Shown piece by piece: positions 13,529-24,983 of a DNA stretch of 35,529 nucleotides. Where the stretch lies: positions 1-35,529 of the forward strand of contig JANWHF010000345.1 in the NCBI GenBank assembly GCA_025450555.1. Reading direction: 5' to 3'. The first letter of the stretch is position 1. Each line of letters begins with the position of its first letter. A program made the position numbers and the translations under genes. This stretch comes from Tepidisphaeraceae bacterium (GTDB lineage: Bacteria > Planctomycetota > Phycisphaerae > Tepidisphaerales > Tepidisphaeraceae). The notes under the pieces were generated by a model, which did no database searches, was not told where the DNA came from, and saw only the letters and a program-made list of their open reading frames with translations.

Positions 13529-16500
13529 TCAGGCCTTGCTCGTTCCGGCGAGCTTCTTAAGCAATTTGGCCAGTGCGGCTTGCACTTTCTTCGCGGCCCG
13601 CGCTTGTTTGGCGGCAGCGATGCGCGCCTGCCGGGCGGCCTTCTGGGGCGCGAGGCGGGCGGCGCGGATTTCCTTATTCGTCGGCTGGGTCGCCCTCGTT
13701 TGAACCGCGGGAGCCACGACTGCACGGGCAGCCGTGGTCGTAGGGGTGGTTGTCGCCGCGGCCATCGTTGCAGGCGCCGCGGCGGGCGCGCTGGAGATGA
13801 GTCGCGCGCCCGCCCAGTCGCCGTGATCGTAATCGGGGCCGTCACCGGCATCGCCGCAGATGAGGGTGAGTTGCTGGACTCCGGTCACATCCAAATTGAA
13901 GCTTTGTGTAGCGCTGGTCGGCGTCATCACGCCGCTGTCGAAGACTTTCACGCCATCAGCGAGCACCTGGAAATCGACGGTACCATTGACGGTTTCTTCA
14001 TCATCGATGCCGACGTCGCAGAGGAAGTTGCTATAAGCGCCGCCGAGGTTGTAGACGATCTGCGAAATTGCATTGGTCCCCAACCCTTTTGCATAGGTAA
14101 CGCCATTGAGCGTAAGCGTATGGCCATCGCCCGAACCGGAGCCGCCAACGCTCATGTCTTTCTCAACCGGCCCCCAGCCGTTGGTGGCGGAGACCCAGTT
14201 CAAGTCGCTGAGATACGTGACAGTGGAAGCGGCGGCGAAGGTTGTCGCGGGTGCGACATTGCTGGCAGCCGAATCGCCCGCGCTGTTGCTGGCGATCACA
14301 CGATAGGAATAGGTCGTGCTGGCAGAGAGCCCGGTATCGCTGTAGCTGGTGGTGTTGGCGGCCAGCGTGGCGATGGTCGTGAAATTGACCCCATCGGTCG
14401 ATCGCTGGACCTTGAAGCTGCTTTCGTTGCTGGAATTGTCGGTCCAGGACAGATTGATCTGGCTGGAAGAAATCGCGCTTGCCGACAAGTTCGACGGCGC
14501 GACGGGAACGACCGGCGTCGAGCTTGGGATGAGCCGAGCGCTGGCCCAATCGCCATGATCGTAATTGGGGCCATCACCGGCGTCGCCGCAGATGAGAGTG
14601 AGCTGCTGCACGCCGGTCACGTTCAGGTTGAAGCTTTGTGTGACGCTGGTCGGCGTCATGACGCCGCTGTCGAAAATCTTGGTGCCGTCGGCGAGCACCT
14701 GGAAATCCACCGTGCCGTTGGTCGTTTCCTCATCATCGATGCCGACGTCGCAGAGGAAGTTAGTGTAAGCGCCGCCGAGGTTGTAAACGATTTGCGAGAT
14801 GGAGTTCGTACCCAGGCCCTTGGCGTAGGTGACTCCGTTGAGCGTGAGCGTATGGCCATCACCAGCGCCTTGGCCGCCGACGCTCATGTCTTTTTCAACC
14901 GGTCCCCAGCCGTTGGTCGCGGAGACCCAATTCAGATCGCTGAGATAGACCAGCGGCGCGACCGGCGTGGTCAGAGTGGCGGTATTGGTGTACGCGGAAT
15001 TTCCGCCGAGATTCGTTGCGCGCACGCGATAGGAATAGGTGGTGTTGGGCAAAACATTCGTATCGGAATAGCTGGTGACATTGGCGCCGGTCGTTGCGAT
15101 CTGCGTGAAGTTCGCGCCATCGGTGCTGCGCTCGATGAGGAAGCCGGTTTCATCGTTGGCGGCATCCTGCCAGGAGAGATTCACGCTGGTATAGCTCGGC
15201 GCGGCGGCAACCAGATTGGTCGGCGCCGTCGGCGGCGGCGAGACGGTTGTGTTGGTCAACTGAAACCAGTTGAACGTGAAGCCGGTGGCTTGGTTGCCGT
15301 TCTGGTCGTAGCTGATGCGAAGCACGTGGGCGCCGGCGGGCAGCGTGGCGGTAGTCGAGATGGTCGTCCAAGTGTTGAAGCTGCCCGTGTAAGGTACGGA
15401 AATCGGGCCAGTGACATTCTGCCCATCGCAATTGACGTGGAAGATCGGCGAAGTCGTCTGGGCATTGCCGACGCGGAAATCGATGCGATAGGTTCCGCCC
15501 TGCGCTAGGTTGATGGTGTAATCATCCCACTCGCCGGCGTAGTTCCAGCCGATGGCATAGCCGCCGCCGGTGTCGGTCGATGTCGAGACATCGACGCCCT
15601 CGGCAAGGCGATACTGGCCGCCCTGGTTCTTCGCATCGGCATCGTGATAGGCGATGCCTTCGCCGCCGTGGTTGTAATCTTCAGCTTGAATGACAGCGCC
15701 GTTGCCTGGAGCCAGGCCCCAGTACGGCGCTTCGCGGAGCGTGGGCGGTGATGTGGCCCAGGGCGAGAATGTTTCGCTGCCGCCGGAGGTCGTATACCAC
15801 TGCGACCCGGTGACAACATGACCTTCACCATAAATGGTATCGCCCGTGCCCGGCCCATCGCCGCCGGGGCCTGAAGCATTGCCCCACCAGTTATTCTGGG
15901 CATTGAATGGGCCATCATATGAATTGCCATTGATGACGAGCGACAGATGGCTGCCGTATGCGAAGGAATTGCCGTAGAAATTGTTGTAGTTGACGACGAA
16001 TCCGGAGCTGTTGCCCGGCACACCCTTGCTGTCGACCGCGACCGCCGGGCCGGTATTGTCGTAGACGGTGTTGTAGTCGATCGTGACGTTGTGGTTGTTG
16101 CCCTCGAAGCGCAGGCTGCCGCTGTACTGGTCGAGCGTATCGGTGACGTAATTGCCGGTGATGGTAATGCCGGTGGTGTTGAAGAAGAGCACCGCCTTGC
16201 CGTTGTGATCCATCACGTTGTTGGTCACGCGAATGTTGGACTGCGCATTGACGATGGAGGCTTCAAAAGCGCAGGCGGCTTCGAGGGTGGTGGTGCTGTT
16301 GCCGCCGCGATTGTTGATGAAGGCGTTGGAATCGATCGTTACGTTGGTGAGATTCCCGCCGGAGATGCCCTGGTCGGTGTAAATCCCCCGGCCACCGTCG
16401 CTGCCAGCATTGTTGTTGTTTCTAAGGAGATTGTACTGGATGATGGCAGGATCGGTGCTGCTGTTGTTGGCCAGGAAGATGCCCGAGACGTTGTTCTGGA

Positions 16501-16987
16501 TGACGTTGTTGAAGATATGCGTGCCGGACATGTTGGGCGCAATAACGATGCCGGCGCCGGTGGAGGTGTCCTGATTGGTTTCGCTTTGCACCGTGAAACC
16601 GTCGATCGTCACGTCGCTGGCCTTGATGGAAAAGGCGGAGGTGCGGAAGCTTCCCGAGAGGACTCCAGTTACGACAGTTTCACTGGCTGAACCTGTGATG
16701 CGCGAACCATTGCGGGCATCGACGCCGGCCTGAGCTCCTTTAAGCGTGAGCGATTTGGTGATGACGACTTGCTCGGGATAAGTGCCGGCGTCGACGGTGA
16801 TGACCGCGCCGGGCGAGGCTGCGTTCACCGCAGCCTGAATGGTCGAATATGCGGCGGTGCTGCCGACGATGTGGGCCGCGAGGAGACGGCGTTCTTCCAG
16901 AAGTTCGAGTGTCGGGATGCGACGATGTTTTCGATTGAGCCGCCTTTGAATGCGCAATGCACGACGCCGAGATTTGAACCAAAACAT
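13529..16987 (-). CDS. Large surface/secreted protein: LEPR-XLL-like N-term, right-handed beta-helix, CBM6-like, two FN3-NPCBM units, Ala/Lys/Arg-rich C-terminal tail
   Basis: N-term 'RIPTLELLEERRLLAA'; beta-helix 'IQAAVNAASPGAVITVDAGTYPEQVVI'; CBM6-like 'YRIDFRVGN…AHVLRISYD…FNWFQL'; FN3 'PSNLSASAISSSQINLSWTDNS'; two near-identical 'YLSDLNWVSATNGWGPVEKDMSVGG…HGDWA.ARLI' modules. Confidence 0.88.
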   Translation of the reverse strand: MFWFKSRRRALRIQRRLNRKHRRIPTLELLEERRLLAAHIVGSTAAYSTIQAAVNAASPGAVITVDAGTYPEQVVITKSLTLKGAQAGVDARNGSRITGSASETVVTGVLSGSFRTSAFSIKASDVTIDGFTVQSETNQDTSTGAGIVIAPNMSGTHIFNNVIQNNVSGIFLANNSSTDPAIIQYNLLRNNNNAGSDGGRGIYTDQGISGGNLTNVTIDSNAFINNRGGNSTTTLEAACAFEASIVNAQSNIRVTNNVMDHNGKAVLFFNTTGITITGNYVTDTLDQYSGSLRFEGNNHNVTIDYNTVYDNTGPAVAVDSKGVPGNSSGFVVNYNNFYGNSFAYGSHLSLVINGNSYDGPFNAQNNWWGNASGPGGDGPGTGDTIYGEGHVVTGSQWYTTSGGSETFSPWATSPPTLREAPYWGLAPGNGAVIQAEDYNHGGEGIAYHDADAKNQGGQYRLAEGVDVSTSTDTGGGYAIGWNYAGEWDDYTINLAQGGTYRIDFRVGNAQTTSPIFHVNCDGQNVTGPISVPYTGSFNTWTTISTTATLPAGAHVLRISYDQNGNQATGFTFNWFQLTNTTVSPPPTAPTNLVAAAPSYTSVNLSWQDAANDETGFLIERSTDGANFTQIATTGANVTSYSDTNVLPNTTYSYRVRATNLGGNSAYTNTATLTTPVAPLVYLSDLNWVSATNGWGPVEKDMSVGGQGAGDGHTLTLNGVTYAKGLGTNSISQIVYNLGGAYTNFLCDVGIDDEETTNGTVDFQVLADGTKIFDSGVMTPTSVTQSFNLNVTGVQQLTLICGDAGDGPNYDHGDWASARLIPSSTPVVPVAPSNLSASAISSSQINLSWTDNSSNESSFKVQRSTDGVNFTTIATLAANTTSYSDTGLSASTTYSYRVIASNSAGDSAASNVAPATTFAAASTVTYLSDLNWVSATNGWGPVEKDMSVGGSGSGDGHTLTLNGVTYAKGLGTNAISQIVYNLGGAYSNFLCDVGIDDEETVNGTVDFQVLADGVKVFDSGVMTPTSATQSFNLDVTGVQQLTLICGDAGDGPDYDHGDWAGARLISSAPAAAPATMAAATTTPTTTAARAVVAPAVQTRATQPTNKEIRAARLAPQKAARQARIAAAKQARAAKKVQAALAKLLKKLAGTSKA
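13796..14217 (-). repeat. Internal duplicated NPCBM-encoding module, copy 2 (C-terminal)
   Basis: About 140 aa nearly identical to the module at 14528-14949 (about 11 substitutions by eye). DNA period is 732 bp. Confidence 0.85.
14528..14949 (-). repeat. Internal duplicated NPCBM-encoding module, copy 1
   Basis: See 13796-14217. Both copies are preceded by an FN3 domain. Confidence 0.85.
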
Positions 16988-17197
16988 AAGACCTTCCCAC
17001 GGGCAAACACGCCCGCTCCCTTCCACTTGGTCCCAGGACAATCACGAGCTGCTCGTGAGTTCGGTGGACCGACTTCAATAACAACTTCGCGCGACTGCGA
17101 CGCGCACCGCAAGCGGTTGCGGCTAAACGGCACAGGAAGCGGCTGCGCCGGCAGTATACTTCTCAACCCATCCAGAAACTTTCCGTCATCGAATAAT

Positions 17198-19387
17198 TCA
17201 TGGCGTTCCACCGATTTCGATTTCATCGGGGGCAAGTGGGTCGTCGATGACTCTCTTCTTTCTCGCGGGGACCTGCGAAACGGGACGGTCCCCGTAACCA
17301 TACGTCGCAGCCATGTCGAAATAGGCTTCCCCGCGGCGCGAGACGTCATTGACGATGACACCCAAAACCGTTGCCCCGACGGAAACCAGTCCTTCATTGG
17401 CCAAGCGGGCAGCTTTACGCATCGATTGCCCTGCGCGAAGCACCAGCAACGTGAGATCGCAGCAGGCGGCGATGATGCGCGCGTCGGCCAATCCCATCAC
17501 CGGCGGCGCATCGACAATCACCTGGTCATACTTGTCGGCCAGCGTTTCCAGCATTTCGGAGAAGGTCGGGCTGTTGAGCAACTCGGCGGGATTCATCGGC
17601 TTGATGCCGCAGGGCATCAGGTACAGATTCGCAACCGGCGTCACATGAATCGCCGCCTCGAGCTGCGCTTCTTCCCGCAGCACCGCACAAAGCCCCAGCC
17701 GACCGTCACGGACACCAAAGACCGAATGCTGCCTCGGGCTGCGCAGATCGGCATCAATCAAGAGCACGCGCTTGCCGGCCTGCGCCATGACACAGGCGAG
17801 GTTCGCCGCCGATGTGGTCTTTCCCTCGGCCGGCGAGGGCGAAGTCACCAGAATTGTCTTGGATCGGTCCTTGGGCGCGCCAAAGTAGATGGCTGTTCGC
17901 AGGGATCGATAAGCCTCGGCCACGTCGCTGCTCGGGTCCATCACCACCTTCTGCCCCGCCACAATTTGGCTCGCGCCGCCGGGGATTTGCGGGATCACGC
18001 CAAGCACCGACGAGCGCACGGCAGCGCGAATCTCTTCAGTAGATCGGAGGCGGTCGTCCATCCAGTCGCGTCCCCATGCAAGTGTCACGCCAGCAACCAG
18101 ACCAAGCATTAATGCGATGGCCAGCGTGCGAAGCGGGGCGGGATAGGACTTGCGGGCAATAGAAGCCGACTGGAAAAAGTCGATGTTTACGTCGCCGGCG
18201 GCGTTCTGAAGGTTCACGTCATGGATGCGCGTTTCCAGCGTATCGACGAGCCTTCGCTGGCGGTCGGTGTCGGCTTGCAGCCGGGCATACTCGGCGATCT
18301 TCGCGCTGACTTCGACCGCCTTTCTGTTCTCCTCGTCGAACTGCTTTTGCAGATCATCCCGCAAGGCTTGTGAACGCAGATACCGGCGCTGCAAGGCATC
18401 CGCATAACCCGATGAGAGGACTTCCAGCCGCTGCCGCGCTGCGACAACTGCCGGATGGTTCGGCAGATACCGCTGCTGCAGCTCCTCAAGCCGCTGCTGC
18501 AGTTGGAGGATGTCCATCCGCAGCATCTGCTCGTCTTCGGAGCTGACCAGCACATTGCCCGGCGAGGTCATCGCGCGTACTTCGGGTGGCACCGCCTTGG
18601 CGGCGGCTTCGTAATCCTGCTTATCCTTGAGCACCTGCGCCCGCATGGACTCCAGCGATTGCGAAATCGTAGCGAGCTGTTGGAAGACGACGTTCTGCTG
18701 GTCTTTGCCGCTGAGCACCCCGTACCGCGACTCCAGATCGGCCATTTTCGCCGTCGTTGCGGCCAGGCCCTGGTTCACGCCATTCAATTCGGATTTGTAT
18801 GCCTCCAGCACGTCGGCGCTGTTGGACCGCTTGTGCGGGCGCGTCTGCCAACTGATATAATTATCGATAATCGCATTAACAATGATCGGAGCCTCGTCGC
18901 GATAAGGCGTCTCGAAGGCAACTTCGATCGTGTCGTCCTTGCGGCCGACATCGACCTCCATGTTGTTGCGCAGGTCTTCCAGCGCCGCTTCGGAATCAGT
19001 AAAGGTCTTAAGATCCCTGACCGTCTTCGCCTTGGGAAGATTGGCCGGCGTGCCCAGCGCGCCTGCCAGGACATCGCGCGCCATGATCTTTTCGCGCTGG
19101 GTATAGAGGAAATTCGCGTATTGCCCGACGTCTCCATTGTCTCCGGCGAGGCGCGAGCCAGCCGGCTGCACGGTGAAGATGCCGCGGCTGGTGTAGCGTT
19201 TTTGCGCGGTCGAGATAAAGACAATTGCCAGCAACAACGCAACAATCACGGGCGCGATCACAAGCCATTTGTTGCGCCACAGAACACCCAGCAGGTTCGT
19301 CGTGCCGGGCTGTTGTGCTGGACTTGGAACTGACGACCATTGGCCGTAACCCTGACCGCGATCTGCGGAATGGGAGTTATTGGAAAT
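17198..19387 (-). CDS. Polysaccharide co-polymerase / BY-kinase (Wzc/GumC-CpsD-like tyrosine autokinase); N-terminus upstream of GTG 19261, probable non-AUG start near 19387/19390
   Basis: Wzz-type TM 'LLGVLWRNKWLVIAPVIVALLLAIVFIS', coiled coil, second TM 'LRTLAIALMLGLVAGVTLAW', Walker A 'SPSPAEGKTTSAANLA', 'VLLIDADLRSPRQH', 'VIVDAPPVMGLADA'. Open frame extends to a TGA at 19403-19405. Confidence 0.9.
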   Translation of the reverse strand: MSNNSHSADRGQGYGQWSSVPSPAQQPGTTNLLGVLWRNKWLVIAPVIVALLLAIVFISTAQKRYTSRGIFTVQPAGSRLAGDNGDVGQYANFLYTQREKIMARDVLAGALGTPANLPKAKTVRDLKTFTDSEAALEDLRNNMEVDVGRKDDTIEVAFETPYRDEAPIIVNAIIDNYISWQTRPHKRSNSADVLEAYKSELNGVNQGLAATTAKMADLESRYGVLSGKDQQNVVFQQLATISQSLESMRAQVLKDKQDYEAAAKAVPPEVRAMTSPGNVLVSSEDEQMLRMDILQLQQRLEELQQRYLPNHPAVVAARQRLEVLSSGYADALQRRYLRSQALRDDLQKQFDEENRKAVEVSAKIAEYARLQADTDRQRRLVDTLETRIHDVNLQNAAGDVNIDFFQSASIARKSYPAPLRTLAIALMLGLVAGVTLAWGRDWMDDRLRSTEEIRAAVRSSVLGVIPQIPGGASQIVAGQKVVMDPSSDVAEAYRSLRTAIYFGAPKDRSKTILVTSPSPAEGKTTSAANLACVMAQAGKRVLLIDADLRSPRQHSVFGVRDGRLGLCAVLREEAQLEAAIHVTPVANLYLMPCGIKPMNPAELLNSPTFSEMLETLADKYDQVIVDAPPVMGLADARIIAACCDLTLLVLRAGQSMRKAARLANEGLVSVGATVLGVIVNDVSRRGEAYFDMAATYGYGDRPVSQVPARKKRVIDDPLAPDEIEIGGTP

Positions 19388-19778: not shown

Positions 19779-20048
19779 ATGGGGATGGTCAACGTTCAGG
19801 TGTGGGATGCCACGGGTGCTAAGCGGCAGGAGGTTCAGATGCCCGATGACGCCCCGATCAATCGCATCCTGGCGGTGCTGATCGAGAAGATGAAATTCCC
19901 GCAGTATGCCCCCGACGGGCAGCCGCTGAGCTACAAGTTCCACCACCGCGCTTCAGGGAAACAATTGCTCGATGAACAATGCCTTGGAGACGTCGGCGTG
20001 CGCGACGGCGATGTGCTGCGCCTTCAACCGGAAATAACCGCGGGATGA
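19779..20048 (+). CDS. Ubiquitin-like beta-grasp protein (YukD/EsaB-like), C-terminus …LRLQPEITAG
   Basis: 'MVNVQVWDATGAKRQEVQMPDDAPINRILAVLIEKMKFPQ…YKFHHRASGKQLLDEQCLGDVGVRDGDVLRLQPEITAG'; Ubl-like 'xL.d.gV.dGDvLrL' and terminal Gly. AAAGGA lies 9 nt upstream of ATG 19779; directly followed by the E1 gene. Confidence 0.85.
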   Translation: MGMVNVQVWDATGAKRQEVQMPDDAPINRILAVLIEKMKFPQYAPDGQPLSYKFHHRASGKQLLDEQCLGDVGVRDGDVLRLQPEITAG

Positions 20049-20049
20049 C

Positions 20050-21345
20050 ATGGCTCTTCACGATTTAATCACCTTCGGCGGATCATCGGGCGAGCCCCCT
20101 GCCGCTCCCGCAGCGCCGGCGCCCATCCGCGTCAGCCATGCCGAGACGCAGGCAGCGCAAGATGACCGCTTTCATCGCTTTGGCCTGATCAGTTGGTGGG
20201 ATCAAAAGAAGCTGGCCAATGCCCGGGTGCTGGTGGTTGGAGCCGGCGCTCTGGGCAATGAAATCGTCAAGAACCTCGCGCTTCTGGGCGTCGGCAACAT
20301 CCTGATTGCCGACATGGATCGGATCGAGAATTCAAATTTGTCGCGATCGATCCTGTATCGCGCTTCGGACAACGGATCATTCAAAGCGGAAGTGGCTGCC
20401 CGCGCTGCGCGCGAAGTTTATCCAGAGATCAAAGCCGAGGCGTTTGTCGGAAACGTTGTCTACGACCTGGGCATGGGCGTCTTTCATTGGGCCGACGTGG
20501 TCATCGGAGGTCTGGACAATCGCGAAGCTCGGCTGGCGATCAATCGCAATTGCTGGCGCGTCAATCGGCCATGGATCGACGGCGCGATCGAGCAGATTCA
20601 GGGAACCGCGCGGGTCTTCGCGCCAGATGGCCCCTGTTACGAATGCACGATGTCTCAGACCGACTGGAAGCTGCTGCAAAACCGACGGTCTTGCAATCTG
20701 CTGTCGCGCCCGGAGATGGAAGCCGGCAAGACGCCAACAACGCCGACCATCGGCTCAATCATCGCTGGTGTGCAATGTCAGGAAGCGATCAAGCTTCTTC
20801 ATGGCATGGAAACGATCAAAGGGCGCGGCTGGGTCTTTAATGGCATGACCACCGATTCCTACGCCATCGAATTTCAGCGCAAGGAAACCTGCTACAGCCA
20901 CGAGATTCTGGAGCAGATTATGCCGCTGGATGCGCGGGCGGATTCGATAACGGTCGGTGAGATATTGACCGAAGCGCGCCGGCTGCTGGGAAGTGGTACC
21001 GAGCTTGAACTGGGTCGCGATGTGCTGGAAAAGCTCGTCTGTCCGCGCTGTGGCCGCGAAGAGCAAGCTTTCATGTCGCTGGGAAAAGTCCCGGCTGATC
21101 GCGCGACCTGCCCGCATTGCCCGGACTCTCGGCGGGAAGTCGTCACCTTCTACAAGATTCGCGGGAACGAAACATTTCTCGATCGCACGCTGGCGCAGAT
21201 TGGCGTGCCTGCGTTCGACATCATCATCGCCCGCTGTCGCGATCGCGCAATCGGGCTCGAATTGGCCGGAGATGCGCAGGCGGTCTTGAAGTCCCTGGGA
21301 CCGGCCGACATTGCCTCCAGCCAGGAGGGACTGGCATGGGAATGA
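20050..21345 (+). CDS. E1-like activating enzyme (ThiF/MoeB/HesA-UBA superfamily) with C-terminal zinc-ribbon-containing extension
   Basis: 'ARVLVVGAGALGNEIVKNLALLGVGNILIADMDRIENSNLSRSILYR' (Rossmann GxGxxG, D.D.IE.SNL.R), 'VVIGGLDNREARLAINRNC', 'CYECTM', 'RRSCNLLSRPEM…TIGSIIAGVQCQEAIKLL', then 'CPRCG…CPHC'. Confidence 0.93.
   Translation: MALHDLITFGGSSGEPPAAPAAPAPIRVSHAETQAAQDDRFHRFGLISWWDQKKLANARVLVVGAGALGNEIVKNLALLGVGNILIADMDRIENSNLSRSILYRASDNGSFKAEVAARAAREVYPEIKAEAFVGNVVYDLGMGVFHWADVVIGGLDNREARLAINRNCWRVNRPWIDGAIEQIQGTARVFAPDGPCYECTMSQTDWKLLQNRRSCNLLSRPEMEAGKTPTTPTIGSIIAGVQCQEAIKLLHGMETIKGRGWVFNGMTTDSYAIEFQRKETCYSHEILEQIMPLDARADSITVGEILTEARRLLGSGTELELGRDVLEKLVCPRCGREEQAFMSLGKVPADRATCPHCPDSRREVVTFYKIRGNETFLDRTLAQIGVPAFDIIIARCRDRAIGLELAGDAQAVLKSLGPADIASSQEGLAWE
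21040..21120 (+). other. Zinc-ribbon-like segment (CPRC…CPHC) in the E1-like protein
   Basis: Translated 'CPRCGREEQAFMSLGKVPADRATCPHC'. Confidence 0.7.
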
Positions 21346-22145
21346 AAGGGAAGAAACGTCGAGGAGCGTCGTCTGAAGCGTCCGCTGTGGTTGATCCCCT
21401 GGCCGGAACTGCTGCGCCGGAGGATGCGATCGACGACGGCGTCGAAGACGAAGATCACCATCTGGCAGCCCAATGCCGCTTTGATGATGATCCGGCTCCT
21501 GCCACGGAGCAGACTGACCTCGAGGCGCCGGCAGATGAATCGCATGTCGCGCCTGGTTGCCCGGATGCGGACGCCATCGATCTTTCGGAGTTTCCTCTTA
21601 GGCTGATCGGTGAAGATCTTCCGGATCGGCAGAAAAAGTATCAGGTCATCGTCGATTCGGCAGTGATGAATGAGATTCATCGCCACGGCAAGTCCAATAC
21701 CGACGTGGAACTCTGCGGCGTCTTGATCGGAAACGTCTACCAGGATGGCGCAGCACCCTACCTTTTGATCGATGCTTCAATCCGGGGAAATGCCGCCGTG
21801 AGCAAAGGCACACAGGTCACTTTTACTTCCGAAACCTGGACGCGCATTCACGAAGTGCTGGAGCGCGATTATCCCGATCATCGAATCGTCGGCTGGTATC
21901 ACACGCATCCCGGCTTTGGCATCTTCCTGTCAGGAATGGACCTTTTCATCCAGGATCATTTTTTCAACGCGCCCTGGCAGGTGGCTTTCGTGTACGACCC
22001 GATCGGCGGCGATGAGGGAATGTTCGTCTGGCGAAAGGGCAAATCGCTTCGCGAGCCTCACCTGCTGACCGGCGATACGCGCGGCGCGCGAGGTGGGTGG
22101 CTGCATCGCGGCGTGGATTGGATCAAGCATCGCTTCGCTTCATGA
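21336..22145 (+). CDS. JAB/MPN (JAMM) domain metalloisopeptidase with acidic N-terminal extension
   Basis: JAMM motif 'HTHPGFGIFLSGMD' (HxHx7Sx2D; 21900-21941) with upstream catalytic Glu in 'DVELCGVLIG'. AGGAGG lies 7 nt upstream of ATG 21336; overlaps the E1 gene by 10 nt. Confidence 0.95.
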   Translation: MGMKGKKRRGASSEASAVVDPLAGTAAPEDAIDDGVEDEDHHLAAQCRFDDDPAPATEQTDLEAPADESHVAPGCPDADAIDLSEFPLRLIGEDLPDRQKKYQVIVDSAVMNEIHRHGKSNTDVELCGVLIGNVYQDGAAPYLLIDASIRGNAAVSKGTQVTFTSETWTRIHEVLERDYPDHRIVGWYHTHPGFGIFLSGMDLFIQDHFFNAPWQVAFVYDPIGGDEGMFVWRKGKSLREPHLLTGDTRGARGGWLHRGVDWIKHRFAS

Positions 22146-23443
22146 GTGCTATGGCCGAAGGCAAGATCATCATCACGCATGAAGATCTGCACAGCCGGCG
22201 GGTGGAAAACCGCCTGCGCGAGCAGCAGGCGATCGCGCGCAATCGCCTTTACGCTTCGCTTGAGGAAGACGCGCTGCCGGTCGCGACGACGAAGCCGACT
22301 CGATTCTGGCATGGGTCAGCATTCATCATGGCGGTCTTTGGACTGCTCGGCGCGATGCTGGCGTGGTGTGCGAGCGTGGGATTTGCCGCAGTTCTTTTGC
22401 ACGGCGGAGGAAAAGTGATCGGCTATCGCCCTACCGCCAAAGCTGATGCGCTCGCGCTGATCAAGGCGTTGAACGACATTCAGGTCGCGCAGGACGCGAG
22501 CCGGTATTCACCGGAGCAGGCGAAGCTCGCCGCCGATGAAGTGCGCGCCAGTGGTCGCGAGAATCCTTACTTTGCAGTCGCAACTGATTCGCGGCTTTCC
22601 GACGCGCAACGCGAAGTAAAGGTCGGCGAGCTCGATGACTCGGCCCGATACAGCGCTTTCCTCGTCGAAGTGCTGCGATATGGAATCTGCGGCCTCATGA
22701 TCGCCATGTGCCTGGCGATGGCCGAGCTGATCGGCCAGCGGAAATTCGGACAGGCGTCGCGCGTCGGGGCAGTCGGCGCGTTCCTTGGACTTATCGGCGG
22801 CGTTATTGCCACGCTGCTTGCCGGACGAATCGCGACCTGGGCCGGCAATATGGTCAGTCACGGCTCAATCTCCATTCGACAAATGGCTTCCGATTCTGCC
22901 GTCTGGGCTGCCCTTGGCCTTTCGCTTGGCCTGGCGTCAGGCCTGGTCATGCGGAACTGGAAGAAGCTGGGCATTGGCCTGCTCGGTGGACTTGTCGGTG
23001 GCGCGATTGGCGGCGCTCTCCTTGGGCCGATGCGGCGATGGACTCATGATCCCCAGATTGCGCAATTGGTTGCGCTGGTTGTCATTGGCATTGTCGCCGG
23101 GGCGGGAACGGGCCTGATTGAACACGCAACGCGCTCCGGCTGGTTGAAGGTGACAACCGGCATCATCGCCGGCAAACAATTCATCGTTTACCGAAACCCG
23201 ACCTACATCGGCAGCTCACCCGATTGTCAGATTTATCTGTTCAAAGATCCAAAAGTCGGCAAGCGCCACGCGGCGGTTCATATCACGCCGGCGGGAATTG
23301 AACTTGAGAATCTGCCATTGGGAATTTCGACAATGGTCAATGGGCGCGCGGTCGATCGCGTTCCACTGAAAAACGGCGATCGAATCGCAATTGGCAATAC
23401 GCAATTTGTCTTCCAGGAAAAGCGACCCAGCGCAGCGAGGTGA
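22142..23443 (+). CDS. Multi-pass membrane protein with C-terminal FHA domain
   Basis: ATGA overlap with the JAB gene; several hydrophobic segments; C-term 'IVYRNPTYIGSSPDCQIYLFKDPKVGKRHAAVHITPAGIELENL…TMVNGRAVDRVPLKNGDRIAIGNTQFVFQEK' (FHA). Confidence 0.9.
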   Translation: MSAMAEGKIIITHEDLHSRRVENRLREQQAIARNRLYASLEEDALPVATTKPTRFWHGSAFIMAVFGLLGAMLAWCASVGFAAVLLHGGGKVIGYRPTAKADALALIKALNDIQVAQDASRYSPEQAKLAADEVRASGRENPYFAVATDSRLSDAQREVKVGELDDSARYSAFLVEVLRYGICGLMIAMCLAMAELIGQRKFGQASRVGAVGAFLGLIGGVIATLLAGRIATWAGNMVSHGSISIRQMASDSAVWAALGLSLGLASGLVMRNWKKLGIGLLGGLVGGAIGGALLGPMRRWTHDPQIAQLVALVVIGIVAGAGTGLIEHATRSGWLKVTTGIIAGKQFIVYRNPTYIGSSPDCQIYLFKDPKVGKRHAAVHITPAGIELENLPLGISTMVNGRAVDRVPLKNGDRIAIGNTQFVFQEKRPSAAR

Positions 23444-23451
23444 TTGGAAGT

Positions 23452-24123
23452 ATGGCGACCCTTTTGATGGAACTTGGTAGTCACCGCCGCGCCGGCCAGC
23501 TTTCCGGGCGCGTCCTGATCGGCAGCCTTCCGATCAACACGATCCGCGTCGAGGATTCGGTGGTGTCGAAGGTGCATGCCTGGATCGGAAAAGATCGCGA
23601 TGGTTTTTATGTTGCCGACGCAGGCAGTCGCACCGGCACGTTCGTGAATGGACAGCGCGTGTCGTCACGACAGCCGCTTCGCGATGGCGATGAGATTCGC
23701 GTTGGCCCGTTGCGATTGTGGATTAGTCCGAATCTGTCGGCACCGCCCGATGCAGAGCCTATTGACTTGACGCCCAAGCCATTGAAAGGCGCCCAGGTTC
23801 AAGGCGGCGTGTTCCACGAATGTCGGTGCGGCGCGCCAATCTGGGTGCCGGCGGGATTCGATCTGCGCAGCGGCCAATGCCGGTTTTGCGGGCGGCCGAT
23901 TGCAGGAAGCGAATTGACCGTTGCTGTTGAGGAAACAAGTAGAGGTGCTGCATTTGCAGATGCGGGGCTATGCATCTGTTCGATCTGTCAGTCGCCGATC
24001 GAGCGGGCGGAAGCGACGCACGGATGTCCGGCATGTGGGCTACTCTTTCACGAGGAATGCTGGAAAGAAAATCGAGGGTGTGCTGCATATGGATGCGCGC
24101 AGGTCGGGGTCACGGACGGATGA
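23452..24123 (+). CDS. FHA domain + zinc-ribbon + prokaryotic RING-finger-like protein (candidate E3 ligase)
   Basis: FHA: 'RVLIGSLPINTIRVEDSVVSKVHAWIGKDRDGFYVADAGSRTGTFVNGQRVSSRQPLRDGDEIRVG'. Ribbon: 'CRCGAPIWVPAGFDLRSGQCRFC'. RING-like: 'CSICQSPIERAEATHGCPACGLLFHEECWKENRGCAAYGC'. GTG 23440 is an alternative start overlapping the upstream stop. Confidence 0.88.
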   Translation: MATLLMELGSHRRAGQLSGRVLIGSLPINTIRVEDSVVSKVHAWIGKDRDGFYVADAGSRTGTFVNGQRVSSRQPLRDGDEIRVGPLRLWISPNLSAPPDAEPIDLTPKPLKGAQVQGGVFHECRCGAPIWVPAGFDLRSGQCRFCGRPIAGSELTVAVEETSRGAAFADAGLCICSICQSPIERAEATHGCPACGLLFHEECWKENRGCAAYGCAQVGVTDG

Positions 24124-24138
24124 GAATACGATCTGGAT

Positions 24139-24236
24139 AGCCCCGTTTATGATAGCCGCGACGCGCCAGCGGAGCGCTTTCTCAGAGCGCAGGGGAAAGC
24201 ACTCCGCTATCGCGTCGCGGCTAACTAAACGGGGCT
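24139..24236. repeat. Nested palindromic element between the RING-like and E2-like genes
   Basis: Outer arms agccccgttta/taaacggggct (24139-24149/24226-24236), inner arms tagccgcgacgcg/cgcgtcgcggcta (24153-24165/24211-24223), further agcggagcgctttc/gaaagcactccgct with one mismatch. Confidence 0.93.
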
Positions 24237-24278
24237 GACAGCGGTCGCTGTAAGATTTTGAGCCGGAGCAGTGCATTG

Positions 24279-24983
24279 ATGTTGGAAACAACCACCTTAC
24301 CCAGAACGATTTCCTTTGCGTGTCCGGGCTGCGGAAAACGTTTTTCGGTGCCATCGGGCTACGCGGGTCGAAAGGCCAACTGCAAGTTCTGTCATGGGCC
24401 CATTGTCGTTCCAGCCGCGCCTGAGCCGCCCGTGAACGCGCCGATTCCATCGCCTTCGGCTTCGCAAAGATTTGCGCCGCTGGAACCGGTGTCGCAGGAG
24501 CATAATCAGAAGTTGCCGATGCGCACCCGTCGGCTGATTGCCGAAGCGCGGCAAATCGAGCAGGCGTTTTTGAACTCGTCGATAATCAAGGTGACGCCCA
24601 TCGCTGGCGATCCGCCGGAGGTTTACAAAATTGAATATCGAATCAAAGGTCTGCGAAAAGGCTGGTTTGGCCGGCCACGTGTGTGCAGCGAGCATCGCGT
24701 GGAGATTCGTCTCACCAGCGAATACCCCCGCCTGTCGCCGCAGTGCAAGATGCTCACGTCGATCTTTCACCCCAATATTGACGCCGCCACCATCTGCGTG
24801 GGAGATCATTGGACGGCCGGCGAACGTCTGGTCGATTTGATCATCCGCATTGGAGAGATGATCGCCTACCAGGCTTACAACATCAAAAGCCCGCTTGATG
24901 GCCAAGCCGCGATGTGGGCAGATCTTCACGCCAACCGGCTTCCGATCGATCCGCGGGTGCTGAGCGCAGCCGAATTGAGTTGA
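24279..24983 (+). CDS. E2 (UBC-like) ubiquitin-conjugating-fold protein with N-terminal zinc ribbon
   Basis: N-term 'FACPGCGKRFSVPSGYAGRKANCKFCHGPI'; UBC-like 'VYKIEYRIKG…HRVEIRLTSEYPRLSPQCKMLTSIFHPNIDAATICVGDHWTAGERLVDLIIRIGEMIAYQAYNIKSPLDGQAAMWA' with HPN motif and candidate catalytic Cys (24795-24797). Confidence 0.9.
   Translation: MLETTTLPRTISFACPGCGKRFSVPSGYAGRKANCKFCHGPIVVPAAPEPPVNAPIPSPSASQRFAPLEPVSQEHNQKLPMRTRRLIAEARQIEQAFLNSSIIKVTPIAGDPPEVYKIEYRIKGLRKGWFGRPRVCSEHRVEIRLTSEYPRLSPQCKMLTSIFHPNIDAATICVGDHWTAGERLVDLIIRIGEMIAYQAYNIKSPLDGQAAMWADLHANRLPIDPRVLSAAELS

Follow-up and report, generated by a model that had tools for sequence, protein, structure and literature searches.

What use does a planctomycete make of a compact set of ubiquitin-like conjugation genes, when bacterial ubiquitin-like protein (Ubl) systems of known function are mainly phage defences? 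The question is raised by a six-gene operon (positions 19779-24983, + strand) of a Tepidisphaeraceae bacterium, carried on contig JANWHF010000345.1 of GenBank assembly GCA_025450555.1; the 35,529 nucleotides (nt) of this contig that were analysed, positions 1 to 35,529, are referred to here as the window. In order, the operon encodes a Ubl, an activating enzyme (E1), a predicted JAMM isopeptidase (the JAB gene), a multi-pass membrane protein with an FHA domain, a second FHA protein ending in a RING-like finger (FHA-RING, a candidate ligase or E3) and a conjugating enzyme (E2). We read it, with a probability of roughly 0.8, as a complete and reversible Ubl conjugation pathway acting at the inner membrane. 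That the six genes encode a conjugation pathway is, judging from their domains and residues, the firmer part of this reading, and a role in the membrane or envelope is the tentative part, to which we give less than even odds.

Conserved parts of a predicted Ubl pathway

All six open reading frames lie on the + strand with the junctions described in an earlier note on this DNA: a 1-nt gap between Ubl and E1, a 10-nt overlap between E1 and JAB, an ATGA overlap between JAB and the membrane FHA gene, a start of FHA-RING at either 23440 (GTG, with a GTGA overlap) or 23452 (ATG, with an 8-nt gap), and a 155-nt gap from FHA-RING to E2. Comparison with homologues favours 19779 over 19692 as the start of the Ubl. 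The E1-E2-RING-JAMM-Ubl conjugation set proposed in that note is borne out by domain matches and conserved residues, and so are the catalytic signatures it ascribed to the individual genes: Ubl, E1, JAMM and E2 all have Pfam matches, and their key residues are invariant in homologues.

The Ubl (19779..20048, +) is a YukD-type beta-grasp modifier of 89 amino acids (PF08817, 43.9 bits; cut-off 27) with the C-terminal sequence PEITAG. It was compared over 55 loci (41 of the RING type seen in the window and 14 of a second type). AG, which provides a C-terminal glycine suited to adenylation, is present in the Ubl of 55/55 loci, as (P/A)EITAG, PExVAG or TFVAG. Between 0 and 51 residues follow it, with a tail of 1-51 residues in 36/55 and no conserved sequence in that stretch. 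Because the AG is invariant and the tail is variable and unconserved, the Ubl of the tailed relatives, whose tail escaped the earlier note, is probably a precursor that is trimmed to a free terminal glycine. In the window AG is itself the C-terminal end, so no trimming would be required. An archaeal precedent exists in CsRpn11, which trims the CsUb precursor to expose its terminal glycine (PMC6043591).

The E1 (20050..21345, +) combines a ThiF-type adenylation domain (PF00899, 180.7 bits) with a candidate catalytic Cys215 (in RRSC), CxxC pairs and a candidate C-terminal UFD-like domain. Its Gly-rich loop, Arg99, Lys112, Asp156, CxxC and Cys215 are invariant in 55 loci, and the four C-terminal zinc cysteines are kept in 54. 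The closest solved structures found by sequence search are the eukaryotic UBA7, UBA1 and UBA3. The AlphaFold model of E1 has a pLDDT (predicted local distance difference test score) of 83 and a confident, beta-rich C-terminal domain; Foldseek aligns it to UBA3 over its full length, with the C-terminal domain compared as part of the whole chain, at a root-mean-square deviation of 11-13 Å, a high value that probably reflects domain rotation. The JAMM protein (21336..22145, +; PF01398, 50.4 bits) has Rpn11 as its closest solved structure by sequence search, and its catalytic residues, E...HTHP...SxxD, are invariant in 47/47 homologues. Many JAB reading frames also contain one hydrophobic segment, but these frames were extended from stop to stop, and membrane anchoring of JAB is not claimed.

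The E2 (24279..24983, +) carries an N-terminal zinc ribbon, an HPN motif and a predicted catalytic Cys173 (PF00179, UQ_con, 35.4 bits; cut-off 27). His-Pro-Asn, Cys173, Asp176 and Trp178 are found in all 29 homologues, and a sequence search places eukaryotic UBE2 enzymes closest among solved structures. The gap before it has the length given in the earlier note, which overlooked that a repeat is inserted there: a palindrome of 100 nt (24138..24237, strand not applicable) occupies the gap, whose folding energy is -87 kcal/mol (z -7.9), and it has 79 matches on both strands at about 40 places in the same genome. The palindrome is an insertion resembling repetitive extragenic palindromes or miniature inverted-repeat transposable elements (REP/MITE-like), not by itself a signal of an operon boundary. 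No more than a few nt separate the RING gene from E2 in close relatives such as L006.

The FHA and RING-like proteins

The membrane FHA protein (22142..23443, +; PF00498, 40.7 bits) has about six hydrophobic segments, against 3-6 across its relatives by hydropathy, and ends in a non-canonical FHA domain that keeps the IGSSP...YLFKD signature and its His. Canonical FHA domains bind phosphothreonine by way of an Arg that follows a Gly and the Ser of an SxxH motif. In the membrane FHA protein the pocket Arg is replaced in 36/36 aligned sequences and the Ser in 35/36, being kept only in L042. The FHA-RING protein (23440..24123, +) has been more conservative, with Ser and His kept in 15/15 aligned sequences and Arg in 14/15, and the window copy has a Ser at the Arg position. 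These lost pocket residues make phosphothreonine reading doubtful for the membrane FHA and weaken it for FHA-RING, so that the phosphopeptide-reading modules which the earlier note saw built into the pathway are not supported in the form it gave them.

Beyond its FHA domain (62.3 bits), FHA-RING contains a zinc ribbon and a C4HC3 RING-like finger. The window's Prok-RING_1 score, 23.3 bits, falls under the cut-off of 29.1, which relatives exceed (38.7 in L014; up to 42.5), and the pattern C-x2-C-x12-C-x2-C-x4-H-x2-C-x6-C-x4-C is present in 46/49 homologous cores. Bacterial RINGs have been reviewed as C4HC3 fingers with a longer last insertion (PMC11354881), a description with which the finger of the window and its relatives agrees. 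By hydropathy, nearly all relatives of the RING protein have 1-3 transmembrane segments, another feature missing from the earlier account.

An additional protein, which joins a RING finger to a trypsin-like serine protease and in many cases also carries DUF4190, is encoded in L014 (13058-14368), L017, L043, L044, L046, L048, L049 and L050. These fusions lie within Ubl operons in at least eight loci of other groups, namely other planctomycete classes and other phyla, including a verrucomicrobial bin. Their recurrence suggests that the Ubl set may work with a membrane protease in some lineages.

Inheritance and the polysaccharide-gene neighbour

A genome scan based on E1 returned 21 loci, of which 20 hold relatives of the operon. 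These 20 span at least five phyla, with representatives in Phycisphaerales, other Planctomycetota, and Verrucomicrobia, Riflebacteria, Gemmatimonadota, Bacillota and Bacteroidota bins, a recurrence which argues that the gene set is not a product of chance. The set is also widespread in the window's own family. The family sample comprises 26 genomes: Ubl and E2 occur in an identical 19, E1 accompanies them in 18, and the single genome with Ubl and E2 but no E1 is 65% complete; the other seven have none of the three. The co-occurrence of Ubl and E2 gives a one-sided Fisher probability of 1.5e-6, uncorrected for kinship. In one genome the operon is split between contigs (G400, with Ubl and membrane FHA on C165 and E1 to E2 on C173), and in another E2 is on a separate contig (G403); in both the parts have been retained despite the split. 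Within the family the operon is inherited all-or-none, as one unit.

Its 5' side is conserved as well. Directly upstream, and divergent from the operon, lies a gene (17198..19261, -) for a Wzc/CpsD-type polysaccharide co-polymerase with a P-loop domain of the BY-kinase type (TIGR01007, 171.2 bits; cut-off 108), a neighbour that had likewise been passed over. Sixteen family loci could be tested, namely those in which Ubl and E1 are still joined and the sequence 5' of them is present, and 14 of them have a Wzc-type gene directly 5' and divergent; in the two exceptions it is about 5 kb away (L009) or absent within 2.5 kb (L038). L006 and L016 are close kin and not independent. An undecaprenyl-phosphate sugar transferase usually comes after Wzc in the family loci, though not in the window. 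The downstream side is unconserved, the first 3' gene being common to at most 2/11 loci. Wzc is described here as an associated neighbour and not as a proven part of the operon. A scan for sigma-70 promoters and terminators gave none above chance. We considered an active tyrosine-kinase role for Wzc and do not claim it: the tyrosine tails are mostly poor and the P-loop is damaged in two copies.

The remaining neighbours in the window are housekeeping genes of LpxC, LpxA, Maf, DUF192, DnaA and histone-deacetylase-like types. Adjoining the Wzc gene, positions 13529-17041 encode a protein of 1170 amino acids with beta-helix, CBM6, fn3 and NPCBM domains, a candidate carbohydrate-binding surface protein. 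Elsewhere, E1 of the same kind occurs in 28/395 planctomycete genomes sampled, and the loci bearing it fall into a YukD/RING/FHA operon type and an E1-Ubl-E2-JAB type. The latter layout (L054-L069) mostly has no RING or FHA, and its Ubl tails read TFVAG or PEIVAG. A complete genome of the same class as the window (G356) has two RING-type operon copies (L042, L051), and B-box zinc-finger genes, one with DUF4190, stand 5' of the operon in L020 and L021 (Thermoguttaceae, Gemmatimonadota).

A possible membrane pathway, its rivals and its relatives

If the proteins act as their domains predict, JAMM would cut tailed Ubl precursors after AG (the window Ubl already ends there), and E1 would adenylate the C-terminal Gly and take the Ubl as a thioester on Cys215, its UFD-like domain presenting the E2. 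The Ubl would then move to Cys173 of E2, and the RING-like protein, which in most relatives has a membrane anchor, would carry the charged E2 to membrane-proximal substrates. The multi-pass FHA protein could have a scaffold or receptor role that depends on its non-canonical FHA surface and probably not on reading phosphothreonine, and JAMM could also remove the Ubl. Within the family the likeliest clients would be proteins of the envelope or of polysaccharide assembly, and our best guess is that proteins of the membrane or envelope are tagged reversibly. All-or-none inheritance and the polysaccharide-gene neighbour hint at an everyday cellular function and not at defence against viruses. A more specific version, in which a housekeeping pathway at the inner membrane uses the RING-like E3 and an altered FHA binding the Ubl or charged E2 to tag the Wzc complex and so control capsule or matrix, seems to us improbable.

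Several points weigh against the membrane pathway. The reactions, the E3 role, the localisation and the substrates are all predicted from genes. The window's own FHA-RING has lost the FHA Arg and, like that of L004, has no transmembrane segment. Its standing as an E3 candidate, proposed in the earlier note, keeps the support of an eight-ligand RING-like pattern shared with relatives, but ligase activity is a prediction, and the C4HC3 finger draws PDB sequence matches to both RING and PHD domains. Among the 50 Foldseek matches listed for FHA-RING all are to the FHA domain, and RING is thus neither supported nor opposed by them. As for Wzc, the link was not seen in the loci compared outside the window's family, the copies in L040 and L041 have damaged Walker motifs, and the region between Wzc and Ubl holds no shared k-mer promoter motif above shuffled sequences. 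From these three points together it follows that the linkage may be inherited synteny, a passive ancestral arrangement functionally unrelated to the Ubl system. We give this explanation not quite even odds, as Wzc has been kept in 14/16 loci over many genera while the 3' side was scrambled.

Other explanations concern the pathway itself. Were it a Bil-like anti-phage defence, infection would lead to the Ubl being joined to proteins of the phage or the host, and the related tri-ligase set found inside a conflict system (PMC7159879) could be cited in favour, as could PADLOC, in which E1 partially matches the E1-E2 model (58.8 bits) and the BilD model (31.5 bits) and JAB models are matched. Yet PADLOC returned no match for the Ubl, E2, RING or FHA genes, no effector is near the window operon, and the set is present in 19/26 family genomes with its 5' context conserved. 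We therefore regard defence as quite unlikely; with housekeeping neighbours and a set widespread in one family, the locus is indeed not a classical phage-defence island, as had been surmised. Delivery of Ubl conjugates to a protease, in the manner of Pup and the proteasome or of ubiquitin, is also unlikely. It would suit the RING-protease fusions of other groups described above, and a Pup-coupled planctomycete Ubl set has been reported (PMC7159879), but genes for a protease or unfoldase are missing from the window operon. In the sampled genomes, moreover, no match to the 20S proteasome beta subunit is above the cut-off, and most of the low ones are frames of about 180-280 amino acids, as for HslV.

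An accessory role in type VII secretion, with a non-conjugating YukD and an FHA membrane protein, takes its appeal from the co-occurrence of YukD and partly degenerate FHA domains in such systems (PMC11217815) and from contig C224 of the same genome, where WXG100 and an FtsK/EssC-like ATPase are encoded near each other. It is nevertheless highly improbable: that locus is elsewhere in the genome, the AG of the Ubl is invariant, and WXG100 does not track the Ubl, being present in 5/7 operon-less genomes and absent from the operon-bearing G401 and G417. The C224 locus (L070:1111-6876) is type VII secretion-like in its own right, the ATPase being of FtsK/SpoIIIE type and 1360 amino acids long, and WXG100 occurs in 21/26 family genomes. 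Finally, E1 has a ThiF fold and matches ThiF/MoeB models, as it would if E1 and Ubl formed a sulfur-carrier pathway for cofactors or amino acids; but every equivalog score is far under its cut-off, E2 and RING genes are not known to take part in sulfur transfer, and no sulfurtransferase or sulfur-metabolism gene is near the operon, which leaves this explanation scarcely credible.

Among known systems, the eukaryotic E3 ligases RNF8 and CHFR likewise have an N-terminal FHA and a C-terminal RING in one chain. The window type differs from them in its C4HC3 finger with x4 in the last pair, its intervening zinc ribbon and the transmembrane helices of its relatives. We know of no FHA or membrane parts in the archaeal system of Caldiarchaeum subterraneum. 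That operon is a similarly compact set of E1, E2, RING, Rpn11-like and Ubl genes with precursor trimming, reconstituted in vitro, but its Ub ends in GG and is not YukD-type (PMC5654768, PMC6043591). Bil (BilABCD) also joins Ubl, E1, E2 and JAMM in an operon, with two Ubl domains in BilA, two adenylation domains (IAD+AAD) in BilD and a CEHH motif in BilB (PMC11354881), whereas the window has a single 89-residue Ubl, one ThiF adenylation domain and an HPN E2, plus RING and FHA. Bub operons are frequently, not obligatorily, adjoined by CapW, CapH+CapP (219/544) or CapK+CapS (59/544) regulators (PMC13373217), none of which is among the Pfam matches of the window genes examined, the regulators being the one Bub feature compared. 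The FtsH-ternary conflict systems share JAB, E1, RING and a Ubl/E2 set, and in them Ubl is fused to E2 and EAD1 and accompanied by vWA, MoxR, FtsH and caspase-like genes (PMC7159879); the Pfam matches of the window include no vWA, MoxR, FtsH, EAD1-Ubl-E2 fusion or caspase effector. YukD/EsaB of type VII secretion belongs to the same Ubl family and has an FHA membrane partner, but lacks a C-terminal Gly-Gly motif (PMC11217815), has no E1 or E2 and is encoded together with the EssC ATPase and WXG100.

By its domain content the window operon belongs to the YukD/RING tri-ligase Ubl systems, whose existence had been predicted before. Burroughs, Iyer and Aravind reportedly proposed such prokaryotic systems, of YukD-like Ubl, E1, E2, RING and JAB, in 2011. 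The mention of this prediction in the earlier note is supported by a later paper, which cites Burroughs 2011 for such systems (PMC7159879). The same five core parts recur here, as a glycine-ended Ubl, an E1 with adenylation residues, Cys and a candidate C-terminal UFD-like domain, an HPN-Cys E2, a Prok-RING_1-type RING gene and a JAMM gene. If our reading is true, the operon would be a regulatory counterpart to the phage-defence Ubl systems, with a full E1-E2-RING-JAMM set, membrane-linked and beside envelope genes, and a compact model for building eukaryote-type ubiquitin signalling in bacteria. Relative to the 2011 systems, as far as they are described in PMC7159879, what appears to be new is the FHA-RING fusion, the separate multi-pass membrane FHA with its altered pocket, the strict co-inheritance and the linkage to a polysaccharide gene, Wzc.

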